From contig JAVJSI010000007.1 of NCBI GenBank assembly GCA_040219515.1, positions 248,001 to 312,000 of the forward strand: DNA of 64,000 nucleotides, given 5' to 3'. The notes beneath the pieces are model-generated. The model worked only from the letters and a program-made list of their open reading frames with translations, did not search any database and was not told where the DNA came from. This stretch comes from Acidimicrobiales bacterium (GTDB lineage Bacteria > Actinomycetota > Acidimicrobiia > Acidimicrobiales > Aldehydirespiratoraceae). Shown one piece after another: positions 12,779-58,893 of the stretch. Position 1 is the stretch's first letter. Each line of letters begins with the position of its first letter. The position numbers and the translations under genes were made by a program.

Positions 12779-12815
12779 GTTGGGACACCGGGGTCAGACC
12801 CCCGTCCCAACTGGA
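12779..12815 (+). repeat. Palindromic repeat A (GGGGTCAGACCCC family, GTTGGGAC-arm type) at the ettA stop
   Basis: Begins at the base after the ettA TGA (preceded by CTGA). Outer arms GTTGGGAC and GTCCCAAC enclose the core GGGGTCAGACCCCC, giving a strong hairpin with a small bulge. It forms an inverted pair with repeat B at 13090-13125, and together they bracket the 78-residue zinc protein gene. It may double as a terminator, but no T-tract follows it. Confidence 0.85.
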
Positions 12816-13089: not shown

Positions 13090-13125
13090 GATGGGACGGG
13101 GGTCTGACCCCGTCGTCCCAACTGG
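13090..13125 (-). repeat. Palindromic repeat B, filling the gap between two convergent stop codons
   Basis: Inverted relative to repeat A and built from the same parts (core GGGGTCTGACCCC read on the + strand, outer TGGGAC/GTCCCA arms). It occupies the whole 36-bp gap between the TGA of the zinc protein (13087-13089) and the TGA of cysC (13126-13128 on the other strand). Both edges therefore read CTGA outward from a coding sequence. Confidence 0.85.
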
Positions 13126-42106: not shown

Positions 42107-42174
42107 GCGCGAATCGTACGCACACGCGCGGCCAAATGGACGTCATGGTGACCAGTGGCACTACGGTCCATGCC

Positions 42175-43404
42175 ATGACGATCAGAGAGACGGTTCGCGC
42201 CTGGGCGGCCGCGAAATGGGACCCGGAGATGACGGTCGCCGAGTGGTGGCAGATCCTCGCTGACGAGCGCTATTCGCTGCCCTCGCTGCCCGAGCACGCC
42301 CACGGGCGCGGCTACTCCCGTCAGGAAGAGAACGAGGTCAAACTCGGCCTCAACGACGCCGGCACCCTCGGTCCGCCCGGCGGCATCGCGACGATGATGG
42401 CGGCACCCACGATCGCCGCTCACGGCACCCCTGAACAGATCGACCGGTTCGTGAAACCGATCGTGAACGGCACGGCCTCCTGGTGTCAGCTGTTCTCCGA
42501 ACCGGGGGCCGGATCGGACCTCGCCGGTCTCCAGACGAAGGCCGAACGCGACGGTGACGAATGGATCGTCAACGGTCAGAAGGTCTGGACCAGCCTCGCG
42601 GAGGGCACCGACTTCGGCATGCTGCTCGCCCGTACCGATCCGAACCAGCCGAAGCACGCCGGCATCACGTGGTTCGCGTTCCCGATGATGCAGGACGGCG
42701 TCGACATCCGGCCGCTGGTCGAGATGACCGGTCAGGCGTTCTTCAACGAGGTGTTCATGGACGACACCCGCGTGCCGGACGCCAACGTGATCGGTGATCT
42801 CAACAACGGTTGGCGAGTCGGCAACACCACGCTCGGCTTCGAGCGCGCCAGCCTCGCCGGTGCCGGCGTGGAACTGCCCTTCGCCCGCGCCGGTTCCACG
42901 TCGGCGGACCTCACGAAGCCCGCCGGAAGCTTCGGTCTGCGCACCGAGGGCGGTCCTCGACTGAAGATCGACGCCGCGCCCACCGCCGTCCGCTTCGGGC
43001 GCTACGCCCGCGACCTCGGCCTCGACGACGCCACCCGGCGCGATGCTCGCGTGCGGCTCCACATCCGCGAGGAGGTCAACCGCCTGCTCGGGCTGCGGTC
43101 ACGTTCCGGCGCGGTACCCGCCATCGGCAACCTGGGCAAGCTCGCCATGAGCGAGATCGCCCGCATGAAACGCGAGGTCGGCAACCAGTCCATCGGCGCC
43201 CACGGCATGCTCACGGGCGCCGACGCCGCGGCGGGCCCCGGCAACGGCGAGGTCCAGGCCTCGACCCTGCACTCGCCCGCACCGGCCATCTACGGCGGCA
43301 CCGACCAGGTCCAGCGCAACATCCTGGGAGAGCGCTTTCTCGGCCTCCCCAAAGAACCCGGCCCCGCCAAGACCACCCCCTTCAAAGACCTCCCCAGAAA
43401 CTGA
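42175..43404 (+). CDS. Acyl-CoA dehydrogenase family protein
   Basis: A 409-residue flavoprotein. FAD and acyl-binding blocks include WCQLFSEPGAGSDLAGLQTK, WIVNGQKVWTSLAEGTDFGM, RVPDANVIGDLNNGWRVGN and the C-terminal IYGGTDQVQRNILGERFLGL. The N terminus MTIRETVRAWAAAKWDPEMT fits members that act on CoA thioesters in steroid or long-chain lipid catabolism, though the substrate cannot be fixed. ATG start at 42175. The stop CTGA at 43401-43404 directly abuts repeat C. Confidence 0.9.
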   Translation: MTIRETVRAWAAAKWDPEMTVAEWWQILADERYSLPSLPEHAHGRGYSRQEENEVKLGLNDAGTLGPPGGIATMMAAPTIAAHGTPEQIDRFVKPIVNGTASWCQLFSEPGAGSDLAGLQTKAERDGDEWIVNGQKVWTSLAEGTDFGMLLARTDPNQPKHAGITWFAFPMMQDGVDIRPLVEMTGQAFFNEVFMDDTRVPDANVIGDLNNGWRVGNTTLGFERASLAGAGVELPFARAGSTSADLTKPAGSFGLRTEGGPRLKIDAAPTAVRFGRYARDLGLDDATRRDARVRLHIREEVNRLLGLRSRSGAVPAIGNLGKLAMSEIARMKREVGNQSIGAHGMLTGADAAAGPGNGEVQASTLHSPAPAIYGGTDQVQRNILGERFLGLPKEPGPAKTTPFKDLPRN

Positions 43405-43439
43405 CCGTTGCATTGGGGGTCAGACCCCCGTTGCAGTTC
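43401..43439 (+). repeat. Palindromic repeat C (GGGGTCAGACCCC family, CGTTGCA-arm type), left end of RAYT unit
   Basis: Begins with CTGA, where TGA is the acyl-CoA dehydrogenase stop, then CCGTTGCATT, core GGGGGTCAGACCCCC and GTTGCAGTT. It differs from repeat F (taken in the same orientation) at 2 of 39 positions. It forms an inverted pair with repeat D, 1 kb away, around the transposase gene. Confidence 0.9.
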
Positions 43440-44410
43440 GGGCGCAGTGTCACACCGACTTCCTAGGTTCGCGTCCATGGCGAGACGCACGAGATCTGCA
43501 GTGGAGGCCGACTGGCACCATGTGATGAACCGGGGCGCGAGAAAGCTGCCGGTGTTCGGTGACGATGCCGACCGCCATCGTTTTCTTCACCTGTTGGCCG
43601 ATGCGGCCGCAGGCGTAGGAGTGGAAATCCACGCCTACGCCCTGATGGGCAACCACTACCACGGGCTGTTCCGATCGCAGGTCTCGGCGCTGTCGGCGAT
43701 GATGCAGACGACCGGCTCGAGATACACGCAGTCCTTCAACGCCAAGTACGGGCTCGACGGCCCCTTGTTCCGGGGCAGATTTCGGTCACAACCGATTCTC
43801 GAGGAGACATATCTCTGCACCGTCGTGCGCTACATCCATCGCAATCCGATCGCAGGATTGGAACGCTTCGACCGAGCGGCATTCGACTGGACGAGCCATC
43901 CCGCCTACGTCGGCGAGGCGAGGGTGCCGGCGTGGCTCAGGACCACGACGCTGCTACGACTGATCGGCGGCACTCCCGATTCGTTCCGGCGCTTCGTCGA
44001 AGGTCCCGAACCGGTCGACCACTTGCCGACCCCGATCCGGTCGATCTCTGGGCCTCGCCCACTCCGTCCGGCCGACATCGAGGCGGCGGTGGGGGTGTCG
44101 TCGCCGATGGAGTTCGAACTCGTCCGGGCGGGCGGGCGAGGCATCCGCGATCCGTTGCGAGCCGCCACGCTGATTCTGTGTCGAGAGTTGACCGACGTCA
44201 CCGCCGACGAGCTCGCGTCTCGATACGGCTACCGCAGCGGAGGTAGCGTTCGCAGCGCCGCGACCCGAGCGGCTCAGCGCTTGGCCACCGATCCGCTGCT
44301 GCAAGAGTTGGTCGACGATGCCCGACGGAGGCTCATCCCGTCCGTGCGCCGGAGCGCGTAGACCCCGGCACGCCTCAACCGCAACGGGGGTCTGACCCCG
44401 AGTGCAACGG
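43405..44410 (+). mobile_element. RAYT unit: REP-associated tyrosine transposase between inverted palindromes
   Basis: Runs from the base after the acyl-CoA dehydrogenase stop to the end of repeat D. It comprises an inner transposase gene and inverted copies C and D of the same palindrome. Unlike a classical IS, the copies form hairpins rather than simple terminal repeats, which is the usual RAYT/REP arrangement. No target duplication is visible, as expected for HUH single-strand transposition. Confidence 0.75.
43477..44361 (+). CDS. REP-associated tyrosine transposase (RAYT, Y1/HUH, IS200-like)
   Basis: 294 residues. The HUH metal site is His60-Tyr61-His62 in ALMGNHYHGLF; the likely nucleophile Tyr119 lies in VVRYIHRNPIAGL; FRGRFRSQPILEETY is a further family block. 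A C-terminal helix-turn-helix (TADELASRYGYRSGGS then VRSAATRAAQRL) resembles the DnaA-like domain seen in longer RAYTs. These enzymes cut single-stranded DNA at REP hairpins. I start at ATG 43477 (MARRTRSAVE); the frame is open back to 43408 but that part reads through repeat C. Catalytic residues look intact, so the protein may be active. Confidence 0.92.
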   Translation: MARRTRSAVEADWHHVMNRGARKLPVFGDDADRHRFLHLLADAAAGVGVEIHAYALMGNHYHGLFRSQVSALSAMMQTTGSRYTQSFNAKYGLDGPLFRGRFRSQPILEETYLCTVVRYIHRNPIAGLERFDRAAFDWTSHPAYVGEARVPAWLRTTTLLRLIGGTPDSFRRFVEGPEPVDHLPTPIRSISGPRPLRPADIEAAVGVSSPMEFELVRAGGRGIRDPLRAATLILCRELTDVTADELASRYGYRSGGSVRSAATRAAQRLATDPLLQELVDDARRRLIPSVRRSA

Positions 44411-44478: not shown

Positions 44479-45915
44479 ATGACCACACGCCGCACTCGAC
44501 GGGTTTCGTCGCTTCTGGCCGTCTTCACGCTCTTTGCACTGCTCGCTGCCGCGTGCAGCAGCGGTGACGACGGGGGCGAAACCGAGAGCGGCGAGGGGGC
44601 AGAATCGTCCACCACCACCGCCGCGCCCGACGACGGGACCACCACACCGCCCGACGACACCGAGGACACCTCTACGACCGCCGCACCCGCGGACGACGTC
44701 GAACCGTTCGACTCGTACCGCGGCGTCACCGCCGACACGATCACCGTCGGCGTCGTCAGCAGTGACCTCGACGAACTGCGGGAGCTGGGTCTGGTCGACA
44801 TCAACAACGGTGACGTCCCGCTCATCTGGGAGACCCTCATCGCCGACGTCAACGCCAACGGGGGCGTTGCCGGCCGCCAGCTCGAGATGATCTACACCGA
44901 GTACAACCCGGTGTTCACCGCGTCCGCCGACGACGCGTGCGTCCAACTCACCCAGGACAACGAGGTGTTCATCGTGCTCGGTGGTATCACCGGGCCGGCC
45001 ATCGACAGCGTGATGTGCTTCGTGCAGCAGAACGAGACGATGATGATCGGCGGCACCCACACGCCGGCCCACTTCCCCCAGGCGACCGTGCCTTGGGCCG
45101 CGATCGCCATGAGCGCGGAGCGTCGCCATGAGGGAACCCTCGCGCTGTACCAGGAGCTCGGCCTGCTCGACGGCAAGGTCGCCACCTACGACGACTCGTC
45201 GGAGAACCAGTCGATCACTCAGGATGTCGTGCTTCCCGCACTCGCGGATCTCGGTGTCGAGGTCGTCGAGTCGTTCACGAGCACCATCCCGCAGGGCGAC
45301 GAGGTGGCTCTCGCCAACCAGGCAGAGATCTACGCCGAGGTAGCGAAGGACGAGAACATCGACACCCTGATCGTCGTCCAGTCGCAGCTCGCGTTCGGCA
45401 TCGCCCACATGCGAGAGGCCGGATTCGAGGGCAACATCGTCGCCATCGACACCGGCGAGACCGTGTCGACGATCGGCGGCTTCGACGAACGCGACCCCGC
45501 CATCTACGACGGCACCTACTCGCCGATGGGGGCATCACGCGACGAGTCGTGGGACCTCGAGGCATCGCAGGCGTGCTACGACATCCTGCGCGAGGCCGAG
45601 GGCATCGAGGTGCTCGATCCCGCCGACGTGCCCGACGGCGAGGCCAACTGGGCCGGCGGGATGCAGGCGCCCTGCGCGTATCTCTCGGTACTGAAAGCGG
45701 CCGGCGACCGGGCGGGCGGGGACCTCAATCCCGACACCTTCCTGGCCGGGTTGGAAGCGATCGGGGCGATCGATCTGGCCAACATCCCGTTCGCCAGCTT
45801 CGGCCCGGGCAAGTACGACGCGGCCGACGGGCTGCGCATCGGTCAGTTCGACCCGACGCTCGGCGAGAACGGCGGCCTGGTCGAGGTGACCGAGCTCACC
45901 GACATCACTCAGTGA
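44479..45915 (+). CDS. Branched-chain amino-acid type ABC transporter substrate-binding lipoprotein (LivJ-like)
   Basis: A 478-residue periplasmic-binding protein. Signal peptide and lipobox are SLLAVFTLFALLAAACSSG with Cys at about residue 26, then a Glu/Ser/Thr-rich linker. The type I binding fold starts at ITVGVVSSDLDELRELG and contains NGGVAGRQLEMIYTEYNP, GPAIDSVMCFVQQN and YDDSSENQSITQDVVL. ATG 44479 is chosen for its good GGGGGG ribosome site and because it begins the signal peptide. Convergent with the LivHMG fusion, overlapping its 3' end by 11 bases, so its product likely feeds that transporter. Ligand unknown. Confidence 0.9.
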   Translation: MTTRRTRRVSSLLAVFTLFALLAAACSSGDDGGETESGEGAESSTTTAAPDDGTTTPPDDTEDTSTTAAPADDVEPFDSYRGVTADTITVGVVSSDLDELRELGLVDINNGDVPLIWETLIADVNANGGVAGRQLEMIYTEYNPVFTASADDACVQLTQDNEVFIVLGGITGPAIDSVMCFVQQNETMMIGGTHTPAHFPQATVPWAAIAMSAERRHEGTLALYQELGLLDGKVATYDDSSENQSITQDVVLPALADLGVEVVESFTSTIPQGDEVALANQAEIYAEVAKDENIDTLIVVQSQLAFGIAHMREAGFEGNIVAIDTGETVSTIGGFDERDPAIYDGTYSPMGASRDESWDLEASQACYDILREAEGIEVLDPADVPDGEANWAGGMQAPCAYLSVLKAAGDRAGGDLNPDTFLAGLEAIGAIDLANIPFASFGPGKYDAADGLRIGQFDPTLGENGGLVEVTELTDITQ

Positions 45916-48766
45916 TCGCGCCGCTGCGATCGATGGCCCGGCGATCGGTCCCGAGGTAGCTCGCGATCACCGCGGGGTTCGACCGCACCGTTTCGGGGGT
46001 TCCTTCCGCGATCACGATGCCCTCGTCGAGGCAGTACACCCGATCCGACAGCGACATGATCAGACCCATGTCGTGCTCGATCACCACCATCGTCGCCCCG
46101 AGCTCCTGCTGGATCGACTTGATCAGCGGTCCGAACGCCTCGGTCTCCCGTTGGGCGAGGCCGGCGGTCGGTTCGTCGAGGCACAAGACATGGGCATCGA
46201 GGGCGAGCAGGCCGGCGAGTTCGACGATGCGGCGAGTGCCGGTGGAGAGCTCGTTGATGAACGTGTCGGCGTAGCGGCCGAGGCCGAGGAAGTCGATGAG
46301 GTCGGCGGCCTGGCTGCGCTTGACCCGGTCCCGCCGGATCGCGCCGGGCCAGAACAACGCGGTGGAGACGAGGCCGGTCCGGTGTCGGGCCTCGAGGGCG
46401 ACGAGCACGGTCTCACGCACTGTGAGCTCGGGGAAGAGGTCGGCCGCCTGAAACGTGCGACCGAGGCCGGCCCTGGCCCGTTCGTGCGCGGCCAGACGAG
46501 TCACATCGCTGCCGTTGATCTCGATCGTTCCGGTGGCAGGGACATATCCCCCGATGGCGTTGAGCAGCGTCGACTTGCCGGCGCCGTTGGTTCCGATCAG
46601 ACCGACGATCTCGCCGTGGTCAGCGTCGATGCCGACCCCCGAGACAGCCAGGATCCCCCCGAAACGGACCTCGATGTCCGTCGCCCGCAGGGCGACCTCG
46701 CCGCGGCGCTCCTTGGGCTCATGGGTGACGACCGTCGCCGGGGCGGGGCGGGAGACACGCACCGGCGGAGGTGGGCGGCGCGCCGCGACCCAGTCGACCA
46801 CGGCGTCTCGTGCCACGTAGCCCACGTGCACGAGACCGGCCGGGAAGTAGAGGAGCAGGACGAGTAGGCCGATGCTCGAAGTGAGAAGCGGGACGAGCTC
46901 GTTGTCGGGCCAGAAGGACGGGAGGCCCACGACCCAGAACGCCCCGATCAGCGGACCGAGCAGCGTTCCGAGCCCGCCGATGACGACCATCGCCACCACC
47001 TGGAGCGAGTCGTCGAGGGTGAAGAAGCGGTTGGCCAGCGGAACGCTCTCGATGATGCCGGCCAGCAGTGCCCCGCCGAACCCCGCGATGCCGCCGGCGA
47101 GCGCGAACGCCATGAGCTTCATGCGAATGGGCGACACGGCGTAGGCGCTGGCCGAGTCCTCGTTGTCGCGCACCGCGATGATGCTGCGCCCGATGCCGGA
47201 GCGTCGGAGCCGAGCGACGACCACCAGCAACACGACCAACGAGATCATGGTGAAGTAGTAGAAGTCACGCTCGCTCTCGACCTCCCACCAGCCCACCTTC
47301 CCCCGCTCGAAGGCCACCGAGGACCCCTCGCCGTCGTCGAGGGCGTCGCGCCGGAAGAGATACACCTGCGCCGCCAACGCGAAGGCGAATGTGCTCACCG
47401 CGAGGAGCAGTCCGCGCACCCGCAACGAGCCGACCCCCACGATCGCGGCGATGCCGGCCGTGACGAGCGCGGCCAGGAACATGGACACCAGGAATGGCAG
47501 GTCCGGAAGAGTGACGTCGAACCATTGCCACTGCCCCCACCCGACGCCGAAGTGCAGGCCCCTGCTGAAGCCGGCGGCGAGGAGCGCACCGAATCCGGCG
47601 AACGCCATCTGGGCCAGCGACACCTGGCCCGACCATCCGGTGATGACGGTGACGGAGACCGCACAGACGGCGAAGGCGAGCACCCGGGCGTAGATGCGAT
47701 GCCGACTCGGCAGGTCGATCAGCAGCGGCACGACGATCCCGGCGACGAGCAGCAGTGCCGGTCCGAGGTGCACGAAATGACGGACCCACCAGATCGAACG
47801 AAGGTGCTCGGGAACGGGGCGCCGCTTGGAGATGAAGGCGAACGAGGCCCGGCCCTCGCCGTCAGCCCTGTTCGAGAAAACGATCGCGGCGACGACGAGC
47901 ACGAAGAGCACGAGATCGAACAGGCCCGGATCGGTGAGGTGGATTCGCACGATGTGCGTCTCCAGCAGACCGATCCCGATACCGGCCGCCACCGCACGCG
48001 GGAACGAGTACATGCCGGCGAGCACGGCGGCCGCGAGGGCACGCGTCATCGTGACGGGACCGAGGTTCTGGATGCCGGTCGCCTCACCCCGCCGACCGGC
48101 CAGCAGGATCATGGCGACGGCGCCGACGAAGCCGGCGACCGTCCACACGAACAGCGAGACCGTGCGGGGGCTGATGCCCTGGAGGCGGGCCAGATCGGCG
48201 TTGCCGGCCGAGGCCTGCACGGTCTGACCGAACACGGTCCGGTTCAGGAAGAGCGCGAGACCGATGGCGATGATCGGCACGACGACGATGACGGTGAGGT
48301 CCGGGCCGTCGACGCTGATACCCCAGAACGGCTCCCAGGAGGAACCGACCGGGATCGGATAGCCCTGCCCGGTCTCGGGCGTGGGGTCGGGCAGGGCGAA
48401 CAGGATCGCCTGCATCAGCTGGGCGATACCGATCGTCGCCACGAGCAGGATCACCCTCGGAGCGTCGAAGAGGCGACGAACCACCGCGAGTTCGAGGATC
48501 CCGCCGCCGATCGTGCCCACCGCAACCGCAACCGCAAGTGCGATCCAGTACGGGAAGTCGTAGTTGACGACCATGATCACCATCAGCCCCATCGCGGGCA
48601 GACCCATGTTGCCGACGGCGAGGTTGATGACCTTGGTCGAGCGGTAGATCAGCACGATCCCCATGGCGATCAACCCGTAGATCAGGCCGATGGTGGCACC
48701 GTTGAAGACGAGCTGCCACGAGCTCCGGTCGACCCACCAGGCCCAGATCGCGTCCCAGATCGCCAT
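45905..48766 (-). CDS. Fused ABC transporter: LivH permease - LivM permease - LivG ATPase
   Basis: A 953-residue single chain. Residues about 15-300 are a LivH-type permease (FNGATIGLIYGLIAMGIVLI, INLAVGNMGLPAMG, GISPRTVSLFVWTVAGFVGA). Residues about 330-670 are LivM (GWSGQVSLAQMAFAGFGALL, RSGIGRSIIAVRDNEDSASA, AFALAGGIAGFGGALLAG). Residues about 700-953 are LivG (IGTNGAGKST, signature LSTGTRRIVELAGLL, Walker B VLCLDEPTAGL). Normally these are three proteins. The gene is followed, on the other strand, by the binding protein and is preceded one base away by the MFS-LivF fusion. ATG 48764-48766. Confidence 0.92.
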   Translation of the reverse strand: MAIWDAIWAWWVDRSSWQLVFNGATIGLIYGLIAMGIVLIYRSTKVINLAVGNMGLPAMGLMVIMVVNYDFPYWIALAVAVAVGTIGGGILELAVVRRLFDAPRVILLVATIGIAQLMQAILFALPDPTPETGQGYPIPVGSSWEPFWGISVDGPDLTVIVVVPIIAIGLALFLNRTVFGQTVQASAGNADLARLQGISPRTVSLFVWTVAGFVGAVAMILLAGRRGEATGIQNLGPVTMTRALAAAVLAGMYSFPRAVAAGIGIGLLETHIVRIHLTDPGLFDLVLFVLVVAAIVFSNRADGEGRASFAFISKRRPVPEHLRSIWWVRHFVHLGPALLLVAGIVVPLLIDLPSRHRIYARVLAFAVCAVSVTVITGWSGQVSLAQMAFAGFGALLAAGFSRGLHFGVGWGQWQWFDVTLPDLPFLVSMFLAALVTAGIAAIVGVGSLRVRGLLLAVSTFAFALAAQVYLFRRDALDDGEGSSVAFERGKVGWWEVESERDFYYFTMISLVVLLVVVARLRRSGIGRSIIAVRDNEDSASAYAVSPIRMKLMAFALAGGIAGFGGALLAGIIESVPLANRFFTLDDSLQVVAMVVIGGLGTLLGPLIGAFWVVGLPSFWPDNELVPLLTSSIGLLVLLLYFPAGLVHVGYVARDAVVDWVAARRPPPPVRVSRPAPATVVTHEPKERRGEVALRATDIEVRFGGILAVSGVGIDADHGEIVGLIGTNGAGKSTLLNAIGGYVPATGTIEINGSDVTRLAAHERARAGLGRTFQAADLFPELTVRETVLVALEARHRTGLVSTALFWPGAIRRDRVKRSQAADLIDFLGLGRYADTFINELSTGTRRIVELAGLLALDAHVLCLDEPTAGLAQRETEAFGPLIKSIQQELGATMVVIEHDMGLIMSLSDRVYCLDEGIVIAEGTPETVRSNPAVIASYLGTDRRAIDRSGAITE

Positions 48767-48767
48767 G

Positions 48768-50993
48768 TCAGCCGCCCTCGTCGCCGAGGAACACGGCCCG
48801 GGCGATGTCGTCCCGCTCGAGCAGCTCGCGGGCCGACCCCTCGAAGCGGATCTGGCCCTTCTCGAGGAAGATCGCCCGGTCGCTGATCTGCAGAGCGATG
48901 TTGATGGACTGCTCGACGACGATCATCGTCTGCCCCGCCTCCCGCAACCGGTCGATGAGCTCGAGCAGCTCCGACACCACCGACGGGGCGAGCCCGAGTG
49001 ACAGCTCGTCGATGAGGAGTACGTCGGGCTCGTTGAGCATCGTGATCGCGAGGGCGAGCATCTGCTGTTGCCCTCCCGACAGGGTGCCGGCCTGGTCGTT
49101 CTCGCGTCCGACGAGCGCCGGGAAGAGCTCCTGCACCCGCTCGATGCGACGACGCACGTCGGCTCGGTCCTTGCGGTACTTGTAGGCCCCCATGACCAGG
49201 TTCTGGCGCACCGTCATGTCGGCGAAGACGCCACGTCCGCCGGGGAGCTGCTGGATGCCGAGCTGCGAGCGCACCTGGGGGGAGCTGAACGTGATCGTGC
49301 GCCCGTGGTGGCGGATCACCCCTCGCGACGGGGTGCCGAGTCCGCTGATCACCCGCAGGACCGTGGACTTGCCGGCACCGTTCGTGCCGAGCAGCGCCAG
49401 CGACTCGCCCTTGGCGAGCTCGAAGCCGACGTCGAAGAGCACCTGGACCCGGCCGTAGCCGAAGTCGAGGTTGTTGATCTGGAGAGCCGGGATCGCGTCG
49501 GGTGCCGCGGCGCGGCGATCGGATTCCTCGAGCTCCTCCTGGAGCTCCTGCACTACCTGTGAGAGATCGCGTTTCACGAACGAGGCAGCCCTCATCATGA
49601 GCCCCCCGCCGACGATGGTGGTGGGCACGCTCAGCACCAGCACAGTGGTGCGGGCCCCCCAGGCGTCGGCGAACAGCAACGCGACGAGTCCACCGCCCAA
49701 CGCACCCGTGAAGAAGATGTAGAGGGTGCCGAGGGCGGCACCCAGACCGCGGAGCCGGTACGGAATGATCGACTGGAGCATCGGCTGCACCATCGCGAAG
49801 GCCGAGAACAGCATCACCTCGCGGGGGATCGACATGATCACGAACGCCGGCACGTTGGGCATGAAGTACTGCACCGGCATGAGGAAGGCCGAGAAGAAGA
49901 CGAGCCCGCCGACGAGACGCAGCACCAGCGACGGGTCGCGTCGGTAGAGCCGATCGAAGCGGGGACCGATGAACACGAGGGCGACCATGACGAACACGCC
50001 ACCGGCCGTCTTGGCGATGCCCCGGTCGAGTGCTTCGAGGTCGAAGCGATCCTCGAGGAAGATGTTCTCGAGGAACGGCGCGGTGAAGATGCCGAAGCCC
50101 ATCGCGCTGAACCCGACGATCACCCCCTTGAGGGTCCGGATCTGCCAGAGCCGGGCGAAGGCCGCGTCCATGCTCGGCGGGAGCGGATCGTCTTCGGCGA
50201 TGGCCTGGCCGAGCACATCCTGCTTCTCCCACTGCCCGCGCGTCGGCTCCTTCAGCCGGAAGGCGGCGAAGGCGAAGAACAGAACCGGTACGCCCAGGAT
50301 GTAGTAGGCCCACCGCCAGCCGTCGACCTCACCCGGACCGTTGGCGATCTCGACGATCACACCCACGAGCAGGGGGCTCAGCACGGCCACGCCCCGACCG
50401 GCGATGGCGGTGATCGCACCGATCCGTCCGCGGATACCGATCGGGTAGGCATCGGCGATCATCGAGCCATGGACCGGGATCGTGTTGGCCTTGGCGATGC
50501 CGACACCGAAGCGGGCCCAGAAGAATGCGAAGGCGTTGGGCACCATGCCGCTCAGGAAGACGCTGATGCTGAAGGCCAGGCTCGACCAGCCGATGACCGG
50601 TCCCCGCCGGAACCGGTCGGCGAGCCAGCCCATCGGTACGGCGCCGAGCACCACGAACGCCGCCGAGATGGCACCGATGAACGTGATCACGCCGTCGCCC
50701 ACGCCGAAGTCGTCGCGGATGTCGGGGGCGAGGAGGGCGAACGCGGAGGCCTGGAGTTCGTCGAGGGAGTTGAGCACCAGGAGCACGACGAAGGTCGCGG
50801 CGCCGCCCCCCATCACCAGGCCCCGCTTGAGGCTCAGCTCCTCGCTGCCGACGCCGGGCAGCAGTTCGTCGGCGAAGAGGATCTCCTCCACCTCGGACGC
50901 GTCGCGTCGTGCCGCTTCCTCCTCGAGCACCAGACCGGCGAGCGCGGACGCATGCGGTCTCGACTCAACGGTGTTGTCGTCCCCCTCGGCCAT
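48768..50993 (-). CDS. Fusion of a 12-span MFS transporter with a LivF-type ABC ATPase
   Basis: A 741-residue chain. Residues about 60-480 are an MFS permease with the cytoplasmic loop signature GWLADRFRRGPVIGW and hydrophobic spans throughout. An acidic linker (VVQELQEELEESDRRA) joins it to a LivF-like ATPase at about 500-741, with LLGTNGAGKST, LSGGQQQMLALAITMLNEPD, LLIDELSLGLAP and VVEQSINIAL. MFS pumps work without ATP, so an attached ATPase is surprising. LivF is the missing partner of LivG in the next gene (1-base gap). The MFS part may tether LivF, or handle another substrate. Start ATG 50991-50993. Confidence 0.88.
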   Translation of the reverse strand: MAEGDDNTVESRPHASALAGLVLEEEAARRDASEVEEILFADELLPGVGSEELSLKRGLVMGGGAATFVVLLVLNSLDELQASAFALLAPDIRDDFGVGDGVITFIGAISAAFVVLGAVPMGWLADRFRRGPVIGWSSLAFSISVFLSGMVPNAFAFFWARFGVGIAKANTIPVHGSMIADAYPIGIRGRIGAITAIAGRGVAVLSPLLVGVIVEIANGPGEVDGWRWAYYILGVPVLFFAFAAFRLKEPTRGQWEKQDVLGQAIAEDDPLPPSMDAAFARLWQIRTLKGVIVGFSAMGFGIFTAPFLENIFLEDRFDLEALDRGIAKTAGGVFVMVALVFIGPRFDRLYRRDPSLVLRLVGGLVFFSAFLMPVQYFMPNVPAFVIMSIPREVMLFSAFAMVQPMLQSIIPYRLRGLGAALGTLYIFFTGALGGGLVALLFADAWGARTTVLVLSVPTTIVGGGLMMRAASFVKRDLSQVVQELQEELEESDRRAAAPDAIPALQINNLDFGYGRVQVLFDVGFELAKGESLALLGTNGAGKSTVLRVISGLGTPSRGVIRHHGRTITFSSPQVRSQLGIQQLPGGRGVFADMTVRQNLVMGAYKYRKDRADVRRRIERVQELFPALVGRENDQAGTLSGGQQQMLALAITMLNEPDVLLIDELSLGLAPSVVSELLELIDRLREAGQTMIVVEQSINIALQISDRAIFLEKGQIRFEGSARELLERDDIARAVFLGDEGG

Positions 50994-51028: not shown

Positions 51029-52207
51029 TTAACGCTCTGCCCTGTCTGCCTGACGATCCGTTTTCTGTGCCTCTCGCCAGGTCAGCCCCTGCTCCACGTC
51101 GATGTCGTGAGGCAGGCCAAGTAGCCGCTCGGCGATGACATTGCGTAGCACCTCGCTCGTCCCCCCACCTACCGTGAGCGCCGGCGAGAAGAGGAAGCCG
51201 TCGTTCCACTGGGCCCAGCTACCGTCGAGCGGCCCATCGGCCAGCATTCCCGCCGCACCCTCGAGATCGACGGCCAACTCGTAGACGACCTTGCCGTGCG
51301 GGTCGGCCAGTGCCTTGCGCAACGACGCATCCGGCCCGGGCGTCTGGTTCACCTTGGCGGCCACCAACGCGAGCCGGTGGTAGCGGAGAATCTCGCCCTC
51401 GATGTAGGCCCGAACCAGGCGATCGCGGTGGGGGCCGGGTGCGATGCCGCCGCGCTTCTCGACCGCCTCCACCAGGTCACGAACGGTCGGGCCGTGACCC
51501 CACCGCAGTCCGCCCTGGCTGAGTGACACTCGTTCGTTGGCCAGCGTCTGCTTGGCCATCGACCAGCCGTTGTGCTCCTCGCCGATGAGGTTCTCGGCCG
51601 GGATCCTCACTTCGTCGAAGAACACCTCGTTGAACAGGCCGCCACCGCTCATGTTGACGATGGGTCGTACCTCGATGCCCGGCGTCGCCATGTCGACGAT
51701 GAAGTAGCTGATGCCGGTGTGCTTCGAGACCTCGGTGTCGGTGCGAGCGATGAGGATGCCGAAGCGCGAGACGTCGGCCAGCGAGGTCCAGATCTTCTGC
51801 CCGTTGACGATGTACTCGTCGCCGTCACGCACCGCCCGGGTGGAGAGGTTGGCGAGGTCCGAGCCGGCCTCGGGTTCGCTAAACAGCTGGCACCACATCT
51901 CCTCGCCGGTGAGCATCGGCGGCAGGTAACGCTCCTTCTGGGCGTCGGTGCCGTGGACGATGATCACGGGCCCGCAGTGGCCGGTGCCGATCGGGTTGAT
52001 CGGCTTCCTCGCCCCTGCCCGCTTCATCTCCTCTTCGATGATCAGCTGGTGCACCGGCTCGGCGTCGAGGCCCCACGGGGTCGGCCAGTGCGGCACCACG
52101 AGACCGGCGTCGCGGAGCTGCGCCGGTGTGGGGTCGGGATGATCGGAGAACCACGAGCGGAGTTCCTGGCGTCGTGGGTCGTCGTCTCCCGGCAGCTCCA
52201 GGGTCAT
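51029..52207 (-). CDS. Acyl-CoA dehydrogenase family protein
   Basis: About 392 residues. MWCQLFSEPEAGSDLANLST, YIVNGQKIWTSLADVSRFGI, IVNMSGGGLFNEVFFDEVRI, LIGEEHNGWSMAKQTLANER and LTVGGGTSEVLRNVIAERLL are the standard blocks. The long N-terminal EPVHQLIIEEEMKRAGARKP suits dehydrogenases acting on bulky CoA esters. Start uncertain: ATG 52205-52207 (MTLELPGD) chosen for a GGA upstream, ATG 52229-52231 possible. Downstream of it on the same strand is the MFS-LivF gene, 35 bases away, which suggests co-expression of transport and catabolism. Confidence 0.88.
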   Translation of the reverse strand: MTLELPGDDDPRRQELRSWFSDHPDPTPAQLRDAGLVVPHWPTPWGLDAEPVHQLIIEEEMKRAGARKPINPIGTGHCGPVIIVHGTDAQKERYLPPMLTGEEMWCQLFSEPEAGSDLANLSTRAVRDGDEYIVNGQKIWTSLADVSRFGILIARTDTEVSKHTGISYFIVDMATPGIEVRPIVNMSGGGLFNEVFFDEVRIPAENLIGEEHNGWSMAKQTLANERVSLSQGGLRWGHGPTVRDLVEAVEKRGGIAPGPHRDRLVRAYIEGEILRYHRLALVAAKVNQTPGPDASLRKALADPHGKVVYELAVDLEGAAGMLADGPLDGSWAQWNDGFLFSPALTVGGGTSEVLRNVIAERLLGLPHDIDVEQGLTWREAQKTDRQADRAER

Positions 52208-53490: not shown

Positions 53491-53544
53491 CCGTTGCATT
53501 CGGGGTCAGACCCCCGTTGCAGTTGGGGTCAGACCCCCGTTGCA
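53487..53544 (+). repeat. Palindromic repeat E, two tandem units at the amidohydrolase stop
   Basis: Unit one (CTGA, CCGTTGCATTC, core GGGGTCAGACCCCC, GTTGCAGTTG) spans 53487-53525 and is identical over 39 bases to repeat F in reverse orientation. A second core follows at 53525-53538, sharing the middle GTTGCAGTT segment. It is the left member of an inverted pair that brackets the second sigma operon. Confidence 0.9.
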
Positions 53545-55196: not shown

Positions 55197-55235
55197 CAAC
55201 TGCAACGGGGGTCTGACCCCGAATGCAACGGTCAG
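55197..55235 (-). repeat. Palindromic repeat F, inverted to repeat E, at the ABC exporter stop
   Basis: Identical over 39 bases to unit one of repeat E when reversed. Its outer edge is CTGA, whose TGA is the stop of the exporter gene at 55232-55234. It lies 43 bases upstream of the sigma factor start, so it also shapes that leader region. Confidence 0.9.
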
Positions 55236-57100
55236 GTGAGGCCGCCGGTTTGCCACATGTCGGCGAAGTGGCCGCCGGCCGCGATCAACTCGTCGCGGGT
55301 GCCGACCTCGGCGATGCCACCGTCGGCGACAACCACGATGCGATCGGCTCGCATGGTGGTCTGGAGACGGTGGGCGATGATGATCGCCGTGCGGCCCTCG
55401 AGGACGACGTCGAGCGCGTGTTCGACGGCCTGCTCGGTGCGCAGGTCGAGCGAGGAGGTCGCCTCGTCGAGGACGAGCAGTCGCGGCTGTGACAGGAAGG
55501 CGCGAGCGAGCGCGAGCAGCTGACGTTCGCCGGCCGAGAGCGAGACGCCACGCTCGTGGCACGGGGTGTCGAGTCGCTCGGGGAGTCGGTCGAGGAGGCG
55601 GCCGAGACCGACCTGCTCGCACGCGGCTTCGAGCTCGTGGTGTTCGAGGTCGCGTCCGCCCATCAGCAGGTTCTCGCGAATGGATCCGGCGAACAGGAAT
55701 GGCTCCTGCGGCACGACCCCGATCTGGCGCCGCAACGACGCGAATGTGACATCGCGCACATCGTGACCGTCGATCGTCACCCGGCCGACCTGGGGGTCGT
55801 AGAAGCGGTTGAGCAGCTTGGCGATGGTCGACTTTCCCGCACCGGTGGGACCGATGACCGCGATGGTCTCGCCGGGGTGGATCTCGAGATCGACATCGGC
55901 GATCACCGGCACGTCCGGGTCGTAGCCGAACGTGACGTTCTCCAGCCGGATCTCGCCGACCACCGGGGGCAGCGGGTGAGCGCCGTCCTTCTCGGCGACC
56001 GTCGGTTCGCTGGCCAACACGCTGTCGATCTTGACCACCGACGCCGCACCCTGCTGGTAGATGTTGAGGAGGGCCACGATCTCGGTGATCGGCGCGAAGA
56101 ACGCACCGACGTAGAGCACGAAGGCGATCAGTTCGCCGAGCGTCACGCGACCCTCGAGCACGAACTGGCCGCCGATGACGAGCAGGACCATCTGGGCGAA
56201 GGGTCCCATTGCCTCGGAGCCCGGGCCGTAGACGCCGTTGATGAAGGCCGTGCGATCGTTGGCATCGAGATACTCGCCGGCCTCGTTGCGATGCTCGACC
56301 ACGGTGCGCTCTCGCCGGTTGTGGGCGGTGACGAGCCGGATGCCGGCGAGGCTCTCCTGAAGGTGGGCCAGCACGTCGGCGATCGTGTCGCGCACGCGGA
56401 TCTGGGCGATCTCCGCCACCCGCCGGTACCAGAGCGACAGGGCGAGCGTGCCCGGGATCACCGCCACGAGGGTGATCAATGCCAGCAGCGGGTTCAGCAG
56501 GAACAGCGCGATGGTGACGGCCACGAGGGTCACGCCCTGGACCGCGAGTTGCACGAGCCCTTGTTGGAACAATTGCTGGAGAGGCTCCAGGTCGCTCGTC
56601 ATGCGGCTGAGGAGGCGCCCGGCCCGCTCGTTCGTGTAGTAGTCGATGCTCAGCCGCTGGAAGTGGGAGAACATCTGCACCCGTAGGTTCGCCATGATCC
56701 GCGCGCCGACCCGGCCGGCCACCATGGTGCGGATCGTGCCGACGACGACCGCGACGGGGACGAACACGGCGAAGACGACGCCCAGCGTCACGACGAGGCC
56801 GCGGTCGCCCTTGCGGATGCCCTCGTCGATCGAGATCTGGAGCAACAACGGCCCGGCCTGCGACATGACCGCCTCGAGCGTGACCAGCAGGAACACACCG
56901 AACAGCGGCAGTGCGTAGGGCCGCAGGAAGCGGGCCATCGTGAAGCGGCGATGGCTGTAGCGGGTCTGGCTGAACTCGGGCGGGTCGACGGCGACGTCGG
57001 GAGGACCTTCGGCCATCCATTGCTCGACCTTGTCGCGCACCTCGGGCGGCACGCCGCTGAATCCGGTGTCGGCCGCGCCTCCCCATCCGGCGTTGGACAT
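55232..57100 (-). CDS. ABC exporter half-transporter, ATPase with canonical catalytic Glu
   Basis: A 622-residue MdlB/LmrCD-type half-transporter: six-span membrane domain at about 60-340 (LYVGAFFAPITEIVALLNIY near its end) and nucleotide-binding domain at about 370-610. Walker A GPTGAGKST, signature LSAGERQLLALARA (degenerate, A and E instead of LSGGQ), Walker B LLVLDEATSSLD with the catalytic Glu. Paired with the next gene upstream it forms a heterodimer. Its ATG at 57098-57100 overlaps the partner stop by one base. The pump probably exports lipids or drugs. Confidence 0.9.
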   Translation of the reverse strand: MSNAGWGGAADTGFSGVPPEVRDKVEQWMAEGPPDVAVDPPEFSQTRYSHRRFTMARFLRPYALPLFGVFLLVTLEAVMSQAGPLLLQISIDEGIRKGDRGLVVTLGVVFAVFVPVAVVVGTIRTMVAGRVGARIMANLRVQMFSHFQRLSIDYYTNERAGRLLSRMTSDLEPLQQLFQQGLVQLAVQGVTLVAVTIALFLLNPLLALITLVAVIPGTLALSLWYRRVAEIAQIRVRDTIADVLAHLQESLAGIRLVTAHNRRERTVVEHRNEAGEYLDANDRTAFINGVYGPGSEAMGPFAQMVLLVIGGQFVLEGRVTLGELIAFVLYVGAFFAPITEIVALLNIYQQGAASVVKIDSVLASEPTVAEKDGAHPLPPVVGEIRLENVTFGYDPDVPVIADVDLEIHPGETIAVIGPTGAGKSTIAKLLNRFYDPQVGRVTIDGHDVRDVTFASLRRQIGVVPQEPFLFAGSIRENLLMGGRDLEHHELEAACEQVGLGRLLDRLPERLDTPCHERGVSLSAGERQLLALARAFLSQPRLLVLDEATSSLDLRTEQAVEHALDVVLEGRTAIIIAHRLQTTMRADRIVVVADGGIAEVGTRDELIAAGGHFADMWQTGGLT

Positions 57101-58893
57101 CAGTCACCACCCTCGTCGAGATGGGCGAGCAGTTCTCGGTAGCGCGGCTCGCCGGCCATCAGGTCGTCGTGGGTGCCGGTGGCGGCAACGACACCGCCCT
57201 CGAGGAACACGACCCGGTCGGCGAGCGCGATCGTCGACAGCCGGTGGGCGATGACGATCACCGTTCGGCCGGCGGTCGCTTCCCGCAGTCCCGAGTGGAT
57301 CTTCTCCTCCACGCGGACATCGATGGCGCTGGTCGCGTCGTCGAGCACGAGGATCTGCGGGTCGTGCAGGAGCGCCCGAGCCAGCGAGATGCGCTGGCGC
57401 TGTCCGCCCGACAGGGTGTAGCCCCGCTCCCCCACCACCTCGTCGAAGCCGTCGTCGAGTTCGTCGATGAACTCCATCGCCTGGGCCGCGGCTGCCGCGG
57501 CGCGGACCTGCTCGTCCGGTGCGGTGGGATCGGCGAACGCGATGTTGTCGCGAATGCTCATCGAGAAGAGGAACGGATCGTCGAATGCCACTCCCACGGT
57601 CGCCCGGAGACTGCGCAGCGTGGCGTCGCGGACATCGATCCCGTCGATCTCGATGGCACCCGATCGAACGTCGTAGAACCGGGGTAGCAGGCGGGCCACG
57701 GTCGACTTTCCCGACGCGGTTTCACCGACGAGCGCCACGGTCTCACCCGCGGCGATGTCGAGTGTGAATCCGTCGAGCACGTCGGCGTCGCCGCCGTAGC
57801 CGAAGTGCACATCGCGAAACGTCACCGCGCCTCGGGCCCCGGCGAGGTCGACCGCGTCGTCGCGCTCGACGATGGTCTCGGGCTCGTCGAACAACTCGTA
57901 GACCCTCATCGCCGAGGCCTTCGCCCGCTGGGCCATCTGCACGAGATGCCCGATGAATCGGAACGGCACCTGCACCATCACGACATAGGAGCTGAAGGCG
58001 ACCAGCGCGCCGATTCCGAGGGTGCCGTCCTCCACCAGGAGCCCGCCGTAGAGCAGGACGATGGCGAAGCTCAGGCGGGGCAGATGCTCCAGGGCGGGGA
58101 TGTAGCGGGCCGACACGTCGGCGCCCTTGACCATCGCCCATCGGAGCTGGTCGGCGACACCGGCCATGCGAGCGACCTCGTGCTGCTCGCCGGCGAAGTT
58201 CCGCACGACCCGCACACCGGCGATGTTCTCCTCGACCAGTGTGGCGACGTCGGCCTGTCGAGCCATCACGAGCCACCACGCCGGTAGTTGCGGGTGACGA
58301 CTCCGAAGTCCGATGACCGCGACGAACGGCACCGGAATGATGGTGACGAGGGTCAACGGGACACTCACCGAGAGCATCAGCACCAGCGCGAAGCCGAGAC
58401 TGGCGAGCGAGATGACCATGAACGGGCCGAAGTTCAGGAACATCTGCACGGCACGGATGTCGCCGTTGGCCCGGGCGAGGAGCTGGCCGGTCTCGCTGCG
58501 GTCGTAGAAGTCCGCCGACAGGCGCGAGATGTGGTTGAAGACGGCGTAGCGGAGCGCGTTCTCGACGCGGAAGGCCACCTCGAACATCGCCCGACGCGCG
58601 TAGAAGCCGCTGAGCGCTCCCAGCGCCGTCAGCCCCGCCAGGGTCCACGCGTAGGGGGCGATCGAGGCGGTCCGTTCGTCGAGCGCGTCGTCGATCGCCA
58701 GCATGAGAACGGCCGGCACCAGCATGCGCGCCGCCATTCCGACGGTCGTGCCGATCACCGCAACGGCGAAGCCCCAGCGCAGCGGCGACAGCACCGGCCA
58801 GAGGCGACGCAGCCAACCCTTCGACGCGTCGGGATCGGGGCGTCCCTGCGGCTCGGCGTAGCGGGCCAGCGCGTCGGTGGCGAGCGCGGTCAC
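57100..58893 (-). CDS. ABC exporter half-transporter with degenerate Walker B (Asp for Glu)
   Basis: A 597-residue partner of the preceding entry. Membrane domain at about 30-315, then Walker A GETASGKST, signature LSGGQRQRISLARALL and Walker B ILVLDDATSAID, where Asp replaces the catalytic Glu. In heterodimeric exporters one ATP site is degenerate: Walker A/B here with LSAGE of the partner. The canonical site pairs the partner's Glu with this LSGGQ. That split is exactly seen. GTG start at 58891-58893 overlaps the marR stop by 4 bases. Confidence 0.9.
   Translation of the reverse strand: MTALATDALARYAEPQGRPDPDASKGWLRRLWPVLSPLRWGFAVAVIGTTVGMAARMLVPAVLMLAIDDALDERTASIAPYAWTLAGLTALGALSGFYARRAMFEVAFRVENALRYAVFNHISRLSADFYDRSETGQLLARANGDIRAVQMFLNFGPFMVISLASLGFALVLMLSVSVPLTLVTIIPVPFVAVIGLRSRHPQLPAWWLVMARQADVATLVEENIAGVRVVRNFAGEQHEVARMAGVADQLRWAMVKGADVSARYIPALEHLPRLSFAIVLLYGGLLVEDGTLGIGALVAFSSYVVMVQVPFRFIGHLVQMAQRAKASAMRVYELFDEPETIVERDDAVDLAGARGAVTFRDVHFGYGGDADVLDGFTLDIAAGETVALVGETASGKSTVARLLPRFYDVRSGAIEIDGIDVRDATLRSLRATVGVAFDDPFLFSMSIRDNIAFADPTAPDEQVRAAAAAAQAMEFIDELDDGFDEVVGERGYTLSGGQRQRISLARALLHDPQILVLDDATSAIDVRVEEKIHSGLREATAGRTVIVIAHRLSTIALADRVVFLEGGVVAATGTHDDLMAGEPRYRELLAHLDEGGD

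Follow-up and report, generated by a model that had tools for sequence, protein, structure and literature searches.

Why should a carrier of the major facilitator superfamily (MFS) be joined covalently to an ATPase that is expected to energize a different permease? The question is raised by a locus of an Acidimicrobiales bacterium (assembly GCA_040219515.1, contig JAVJSI010000007.1, positions 248,001 to 312,000 of the forward strand), in which all the membrane and ATPase subunits of an importer of the LIV type, a class of ATP-binding cassette (ABC) transporters, are packed in two chains, LivH~LivM~LivG and MFS~LivF (the tilde marks fusion within one open frame). Importers of this type ordinarily consist of four or five separate parts. 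The window, as the whole stretch analysed is called here, is 64,000 nucleotides in length. ABC importers and MFS carriers are large classes usually treated as mechanically separate, and here one is built into the other. Judged by comparison of sequences, the hybrid is real, old and widespread in related bacteria, and is not a sequencing error. It may represent a working MFS carrier clamped to a LIV ATPase, forming a two-mode importer for acids that are degraded as coenzyme A (CoA) esters, a proposal that could equally prove right or wrong.

Organization of the two fusion genes

The two genes lie on the minus strand, MFS~LivF first and LivH~LivM~LivG second, and a single base separates the stop codon TGA of the former (48770-48768) from the start codon ATG of the latter (48766). 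The genes and their domains are as follows (aa, amino acid residues; pLDDT, predicted local distance difference test; TM, transmembrane helix).

48768..50993, minus strand: MFS~LivF fusion gene, 741 aa (open frame and Pfam; 94 further fused frames in fetched loci)
50829..50993, minus strand: N-terminal cytoplasmic tail, residues 1-55 (low pLDDT, helix at 15-36 in the model)
49584..50828, minus strand: MFS domain, residues 56-470, with Spinster/DgoT-like fold (Pfam, profile and structure comparison)
49494..49583, minus strand: helical linker, residues 471-500, continuing TM12 (predicted helix 447-496; AlphaFold model and linker lengths)
48771..49493, minus strand: LivF-type ATPase domain, residues 501-741 (Pfam, NCBIfam, structure comparison and motifs)
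45905..48766, minus strand: LivH~LivM~LivG fusion gene, 953 aa (open frame and Pfam)
47852..48736, minus strand: LivH permease domain, residues ~11-305, limits set by eye (BPD_transp_2 in two stretches)
46772..47731, minus strand: LivM permease domain, residues ~346-665 (best BPD_transp_2 stretch at 360-615)
45908..46702, minus strand: LivG-type ATPase domain, residues ~689-953 (ABC_tran, BCA_ABC_TP_C and NCBIfam)

Both lengths are counted from ATG, and the 741-aa protein becomes 813 aa if read from an earlier GTG. Pfam recognized MFS_1 (79-433; 111.6 bits, cut-off 33.4) and ABC_tran (521-663) in the 741-aa protein, and two stretches of BPD_transp_2 (191.4 bits), ABC_tran (710-868) and BCA_ABC_TP_C (918-941; 41.9 bits, cut-off 25.5) in the 953-aa protein. 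Among the NCBIfam models, UrtE and LivF are nearest to the ATPase of the 741-aa protein, both below their curated equivalog cut-offs, and LivG is nearest to that of the 953-aa protein, again below the equivalog cut-off (207.9 versus 362 bits). The system thus contains two BPD_transp_2 permease domains, a LivG-type ATPase with a BCA_ABC_TP_C tail, a LivF-type ATPase and a Peripla_BP_6-type binding protein, parts by which LIV importers (HAAT) are recognized. In the N-terminal tail of the MFS~LivF protein, E26, R29, D42, L45, P46, G47 and V48 are nearly invariant in a 44-row alignment (A1).

An earlier note made from the sequence of the window had described four Liv subunits in two chains of 953 and 741 residues, one base apart, and the frames and Pfam matches confirm this description. 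The claim that the second chain includes an entire MFS permease is upheld by the MFS_1 match and by the full fold in structure comparison, and the joining of an ATPase to a carrier other than its own permease is borne out.

Reality and spread of the fusion

A search with the whole fusion identified MFS~LivF fusions of 83-87% identity in three independent assemblies (L026, L027 and L056; fetched loci are designated by L numbers). In the window's own genome, MFS and ATPase are in one frame at four loci, the window, C10 (56% identity), C5 (46%) and C1 (39%), and LivHM or LivHMG adjoins the fusion at all four. A whole-protein match at E <= 1e-40 was present in all 51 genomes of the window's family, and matches in genomes where the best was weaker than 1e-60 (G021, G022, G024 and G031) are not counted as evidence for the MFS part. 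When the MFS part alone was used as query, 84 of 296 genomes of the class matched at 1e-20, and of 396 genomes sampled from the phylum, 24 matched at 1e-15, nine of these being outside the class. Named bearers of the fusion comprise assemblies of Acidimicrobiia together with Embleya scabrispora, Embleya hyalina and Streptomyces sp. SID3343. A further one is Embleya sp. NBC_00888, whose linear replicon of 5.7 Mb was alone among 1066 matching plasmid records in giving at least 80% cover in one place. Genomes beyond Actinomycetota were covered solely by a pattern-based scan with the whole fusion and by the plasmid records. Two loci, L040 (labelled Terriglobia) and L056 (labelled Acidobacteria), are likely to be from mislabelled assemblies, given the closeness of their sequences to those of Acidimicrobiia.

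The open frames in the fetched loci were searched with profiles made from the same loci, a score of at least 150 bits being taken to indicate a member of the MFS family. With the window excluded, 110 frames contained the family MFS, and 94 of these also hold LivF, 63 as MFS~LivF and 31 as MFS~LivF~LivG; since the loci were chosen non-randomly, by the whole-fusion search plus a chosen part of the MFS-alone matches, 94/110 is no estimate of frequency. For this count, L042, L125 and L126 were removed by hand as duplicates, and L098 and L121 are neighbouring parts of one contig; L042 is still counted beside L040 in the neighbour-family, ATPase-motif and upstream-gene counts given below.

These observations bear on the reading that the fusion is an artefact, in which a frameshift, a missed stop or a misassembly has joined separate genes. 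As this reading would allow, the MFS, or the MFS and LivF, is split across frames in the relatives L062 and L106. Against it stand the 94 fused frames, from many genomes that were assembled separately, the single clade of the fused LivF and the near-fixed linker (see below for both), the presence of LivH~LivM beside 90 of the 94 fusions, and for the window's gene in particular the 83-87% identical fusions in independent assemblies. An artefact is therefore vanishingly improbable, and for the family it is ruled out by the independent fused frames, the cassette context and the LivF clade. The frameshift or assembly error that the earlier note had named as a refutation fails. In L106 (5171-7393), MFS and LivF are in overlapping frames, which could be a natural split gene or a sequencing error.

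Layouts of the cassette

The 16 remaining frames consist of six that are cut by the end of the stretch, the two split cases (L062 and L106), L100, in which no ATPase was detected by the profiles beside the family MFS, and seven stand-alone MFS genes with no ATPase in frame (L107, L108, L110, L112, L113, L134 and L137), which are assigned to the family by profile score (196 to 466 bits) and tree only. Since these seven members persist without an ATPase in frame, the MFS part can presumably serve alone.

LivH~LivM is located within 1500 bases on the same strand for the above 90 fusions; the other four (L131, L038, one copy in L067, and L063) are truncated where the stretch or contig ends, and three of them retain a part of LivH or LivM. 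Two layouts were recognized, A (MFS~LivF followed by LivH~LivM~LivG) and B (LivH~LivM followed by MFS~LivF~LivG), and LivG is a separate gene in L115, L127 and L128. A second LivF was found in none of the 94 fused cassettes. While the layout of other subunits varies, MFS~LivF persists, indicating that this join is the constant part, around which the other subunits are rearranged.

Two peculiarities were noted in individual cassettes. In L067 (500-10208), two divergent MFS~LivF genes of different subfamilies are present with two binding-protein genes between them. In three loci of layout A (L055, L057 and L067), the LivH part of LivHMG was matched in two pieces, suggesting an insertion or divergence in LivH.

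Origin and motifs of the fused ATPase

A tree was made from 62 LivF domains, and its 50 fused rows, including the split case L106, formed one clade (support 96/89). The sister of this clade is the L121 LivF, which is part of a LIV set having separate LivH, LivM, LivG and LivF genes (99/95 for the 51 rows). The simplest reading of these sequences is a single old fusion event, followed by loss of the ATPase from some MFS genes. A first tree of 52 rows had rejected the fused rows as one clade (approximately unbiased test, p 0.005). In that tree, L106, where the MFS is in an overlapping frame, and the LivF at the edge of L098 were labelled as ordinary, and the latter was later found to belong to the unfused four-gene LIV set L121; the relabelling (L106 as a split fusion, L121 as its own group) was made after seeing the first tree. 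For the 62-row tree, the long-branch rows L009 and L010 and two exact duplicates were dropped, and twelve fused and two ordinary rows were added. The MFS tree, with a midpoint root, did not cleanly separate layouts A and B, and the reading of the stand-alone MFS genes as losses rests on the LivF tree. A second independent fusion was considered for L132 (linker of 50 residues) and is not supported, its LivF being inside the fused clade on a long branch with weak support (83/72). In L110 (9-3403), a stand-alone MFS gene is followed by a binding-protein gene of the layout B type, and no LIV ATPase or permease was seen in the stretch. This arrangement, in an assembly of 860 contigs, hints at loss of the ATPase; the MFS here may be a carrier that depends on the binding protein, or the locus may be broken.

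Both ATPases retain their catalytic motifs, as counted by pattern, for the loci fetched at that stage, in domains not shorter than 225 residues. All the fused LivF domains (56/56 in layout A and 26/26 in layout B, 82/82 together) and all the LivG domains (49/49 and 25/25, 74/74 together) contain Walker A. At the switch position, for which Q in LivF and H in LivG are usual in LIV systems, Q was found in 81 of 82 LivF domains and H in 73 of 74 LivG domains, one being missed by the pattern in each case. Walker B with its glutamate was present in 82/82 LivF and 72/74 LivG domains, the other two not being found by the pattern. The fused LivF has DEL (78/82) or DEM (4/82) in Walker B, where ordinary LivF has DEP. 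The pattern for the ABC signature, a crude expression, missed 13 of the 82 fused LivF domains. In structure comparison, the LivF domain matched 1ji0 with Z 31.1.

State and affinity of the MFS domain

The ratio of nonsynonymous to synonymous substitution (dN/dS, Nei-Gojobori) between the window and L026, L027 and L056 was 0.094, 0.108 and 0.084 for the MFS, compared with 0.142, 0.139 and 0.142 for LivF; against L026 and L027, the values were 0.142 and 0.226 for LivH, 0.147 and 0.161 for LivM, and 0.138 and 0.156 for LivG. In every pair compared, the MFS was the lowest among the transporter domains. MFS motif A is intact, D126, R127 and R130 being invariant in 44 of 44 rows of A1, and charges are kept within the helices (D or E at 78 in 44/44, E79 in 41/44, K168 in 41/44 and H175 in 38/44). 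The modelled MFS was superimposed on Spns1 with Z 38.1 over 411 residues, and on OxlT (37.5), SPNS2 (37.4) and DgoT (34.9). With the family profile, the best solved relative was 6e8j (E 4.8e-40), presumably a bacterial Spinster homologue, followed by Spns1 and DgoT. In a plain Foldseek search, the 50 best matches listed were ABC entries, and the MFS matches are from the profile search and the structure comparison. The cut-off of the DgoT/ACS subfamily model TIGR00893 was not reached (66.1 versus 395 bits). By fold and sequence, the MFS thus appears to be of the Spinster/DgoT-like branch, and is not filed as a Spinster protein. A degenerate MFS part, which the earlier note had named as a second way to refute its case, is ruled out by the low dN/dS, the full fold, and the retention of motif A and intrahelical charges.

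Linker and proposed mode of action

Linker lengths were corrected for profile ends, and the 94 fusions were thinned to 42 with MFS parts less than 60% identical. The MFS-LivF linker has a median of 26 residues (quartiles 25 and 27, range 15-50), and 39 of 42 are within three residues of the median. In the loci of the same 42 fusions, lengths within three residues of the median were found for 5 of 20 LivF-LivG linkers (range 9-75), 8 of 16 LivM-LivG linkers (range 10-44) and 33 of 39 LivH-LivM linkers (range 35-44). In the AlphaFold model of the 741-aa protein (mean pLDDT 82.8; predicted template modelling score, pTM, 0.76), residues 447-496 are predicted as one helix, in which TM12 extends into the linker, with 10-residue means of pLDDT of 83-93 over 451-500. 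The near-constant and predicted helical linker suggests that the states of ATPase and MFS influence each other.

The proposed two-mode importer would be organized as follows. The two polypeptides would bring five modules, LivH, LivM, LivG, LivF and MFS, into a 1:1 assembly with one copy of each in the complex, because a LIV importer requires LivH, LivM, LivG and LivF once each, and all four are present only within a chain. LivHM and the LivF-LivG pair would form an ordinary binding-protein-dependent LIV importer, and the MFS would be a secondary carrier of Spinster/DgoT-like type, held to the complex by a rigid TM12 helix set into LivF. Both routes would probably serve the same carboxylic acid, or the acid and its breakdown product, and the neighbour genes would handle CoA esters. 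ATP-driven high-affinity uptake would take place via LivHM, and gradient-driven uptake or exchange via the MFS, with mutual influence of ATPase and MFS through the helix.

A number of observations weigh against this proposal. For the pair L026 and L056, dN/dS is nearly equal in the MFS (0.098) and LivF (0.105). Long-range divergence is faster in the MFS, with a mean majority fraction over A1 of 0.69 versus 0.78 for LivF; this lower conservation is expected of a membrane domain. Conservation favours the inner over the outer MFS helices weakly (a difference as large arose in 102 of 5000 permutations), and the most variable MFS helix is TM10, which should line the cavity. The LivH-LivM linkers are also fairly fixed, so that fixed length alone is no proof of coupling. 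Neighbour enzymes vary between loci (see below), which makes a shared substrate uncertain. Finally, the proton-coupling acids of Spinster carriers, D41 and E129 in HnSpns, align with Q81 and K168 in the window protein. In place of the Asp of TM1 and the Glu of TM4, the 44 rows have Q (24), E (19) or D (1) at position 81 and K (41) or Q (3) at position 168. With the coupling acids replaced, proton coupling by the MFS, if any, must differ from that of Spinster.

The loss of these acids would suit an MFS that is a receptor and not a carrier, which binds the substrate at one face of the membrane and switches the LIV ATPase on or off via the rigid helix. UhpC is an example of an MFS protein that senses rather than transports. 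The near-fixed, predicted helical link to the ATPase, and the joining to LivF in all 94 cassettes, are also as a receptor would have it, and the low dN/dS of the MFS fits a carrier and a receptor equally; the seven stand-alone members that persist without an ATPase in frame speak for a carrier, and a receptor is considered rather unlikely.

Alternatively, the MFS could serve chiefly to hold LivF at the membrane, as a tether or a platform for assembly, and to fix the stoichiometry, its own transport being unimportant. The packing of the window's LIV membrane and ATPase subunits in two chains, together with the variation of layouts by clade, points to packing into few chains as a trend of the family, in agreement with such a role. 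However, the most constrained domain between close relatives is not what is expected of a tether, nor is retention of motif A and intrahelical charges, and in ordinary LIV systems LivF already binds the permease unaided; hence this alternative is unlikely. Between the two ideas of the earlier note, to tether the ATPase or to join two transport modes, the former is the weaker, because simple flexible tethering could do without a fixed helical linker and because the MFS has the lowest dN/dS; the joining of two modes fits better, as a proposal.

The same helix raises a bolder reading, in which the ATPase cycle of LivF-LivG is relayed through it to give an ATP-gated or ATP-driven MFS that moves in step with the LIV importer, a primary/secondary hybrid in one complex. 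This is regarded as decidedly unlikely. The narrower form, in which the LivF-LivG pair powers or gates the MFS by pulling its last helix besides powering LivHM, is very unlikely: LivHM, the ordinary partner of the ATPase, is beside 90 of 94 fusions, the other four being cut short, and no MFS is known to be driven directly by an ABC ATPase pair. In its favour, the MFS shares a chain with LivF in layouts A and B alike, and with both ATPases in layout B, and the predicted helix is continuous and of near-fixed length. A precedent for gradient-driven and ATPase-assisted modes in one carrier is ArsB, which can work either on a proton gradient or together with an ATPase (PMC13381914).

Neighbouring genes and possible substrates

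Three genes around the fusion genes of the window may be related to the proposed two-mode uptake of acids.

44479..45915 (alternative start 44419), plus strand: LIV-type substrate-binding lipoprotein, convergent with the transporter (Peripla_BP_6, 39.7 bits)
51029..52207, minus strand: acyl-CoA dehydrogenase, 35 bases upstream of MFS~LivF on the same strand
42136..43404, plus strand: second acyl-CoA dehydrogenase, of the same cluster as that at 51029..52207, beyond the binding-protein gene

The acyl-CoA dehydrogenase at 51029..52207 is probably in the same operon as the transporter. With the window included, a same-strand acyl-CoA dehydrogenase is the upstream gene, 22 to 169 bases away, in 11 of the 55 layout A cassettes that have a called upstream gene, and in five of the loci that were mapped (L030, L032, L036, L069 and L070) it is preceded by a PaaK-like CoA ligase that scored below the model cut-off. 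A proline racemase-family gene is found in eleven loci and an ornithine cyclodeaminase-family gene also in eleven, the near-duplicates L040 and L042 both being counted, and a cluster of AMP-binding enzymes in ten, of which eight are of layout B. A common theme may be the uptake of an acid that is then processed either as its CoA ester or as an imino acid, and the substrates probably differ between paralogues.

The same binding-protein gene is convergent with the cassette in L026 and L027. Binding proteins, sought with two profiles within short stretches, were recognized in 30 of 63 cases of layout A and 26 of 31 of layout B, and in 23 of the 46 layout A cases where 3.5 kb or more was available to each side of the fusion gene, the partner gene being part of this distance; in the remaining layout A cases they may be encoded elsewhere or missed by the profiles, as may be the case for a 517-aa neighbour in L021. 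The one binding protein of layout B that was scanned was not recognized by Pfam, and the layout B and layout A binding proteins matched in profile-to-profile comparison (probability 99.6, E 4e-24).

The nearest sequences to the acyl-CoA dehydrogenase upstream of the cassette are those of 4x28 and 6wy8, both steroid side-chain enzymes. A model of 3-ketosteroid dehydrogenase, as one marker, gave no match above cut-off in the window's genome, and transport of steroids is not claimed. For branched-chain amino acids as the substrate, no support was found beyond the family name.

Other elements were noted in the surroundings. A palindromic repeat around GGGGTCAGACCCC is located at 12790-12802, 13099-13111, 43416-43428, 44387-44399, 53502-53514, 53525-53537 and 55208-55220. 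With up to one mismatch, its 11-base core gave 16 matches versus 2.8 expected, and none of 100 shuffles gave as many; 14 of the 16 are seven sites read on both strands, and the copies read are flanked by TTGCA-like words. The copies at 43416 and 44387 flank a gene for a Y1 (IS200-like) transposase (43501-44361, plus strand, 27.7 bits), between the acyl-CoA dehydrogenase and the binding protein, a pairing that presumably resembles a REP element with its RAYT transposase. At 55232-58893 on the minus strand are two adjoining ABC exporter-type genes, each encoding permease and ATPase in one chain, and a similar pair is upstream of the cassette in L026 and L027.

Comparison with known transport systems

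Among open-licence PubMed Central papers, judged by titles and the beginnings of abstracts, no account was found of a fusion between an MFS and an ABC ATPase, of the LIV type or any other; an earlier mention elsewhere, for instance in subscription journals or specialist transporter databases, is possible. The system, a LIV importer with a built-in MFS, is apparently undescribed in those papers. Annotation by one half, as 'MFS transporter' or 'ABC transporter ATP-binding protein', may hide the other half, and the one annotated record that was checked lists no gene at the fusion site. In the family of fusions, it could be studied in a natural setting whether the ATPase of an ABC transporter can control a secondary carrier or be controlled by it.

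The LIV type (HAAT) is exemplified by LivKHMGF of Escherichia coli, and unfused LIV genes are present in the plasmid loci L117, L118 and L120. The window system is similar to these importers in its two BPD_transp_2 permease domains, LivG- and LivF-like ATPases, Peripla_BP_6-type binding protein and the Q and H switch residues, but is different in that its subunits are fused in two chains, LivF is joined to an MFS, and Walker B of the fused LivF is DEL or DEM. The Spinster/SPNS and DgoT (ACS) carriers (PDB 6e8j, 9boi and 6e9o) share the fold and give the best profile matches, but the MFS of the window has Q81 and K168 at the coupling sites and an ATPase at its C-terminus, and does not reach the cut-offs of NCBIfam subfamilies. 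In ArsAB, the carrier and ATPase are separate proteins forming an exporter, and both the carrier fold and the ATPase differ from those of the window.

Two further systems are comparable in other respects. In Rhodococcus jostii RHA1, the ABC transporter camABCD and the MFS carrier camM take up related cholate metabolites of one pathway (PMC8399759), and camM is described as not conserved (PMC4810484). The two are separate transporters in R. jostii and are not fused as in the window, but they show that an ABC importer and an MFS carrier can share one pathway. LplT-Aas consists of an MFS transporter with a cytoplasmic enzyme that acts on its cargo, and in some bacteria the two are apparently fused, the fused forms being described as uncharacterized (PMC11416262). 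LplT~Aas is thus similar to MFS~LivF in joining an MFS to a cytoplasmic partner, but is different with respect to the partner, which is an acyltransferase in LplT~Aas and an ATPase in the window.

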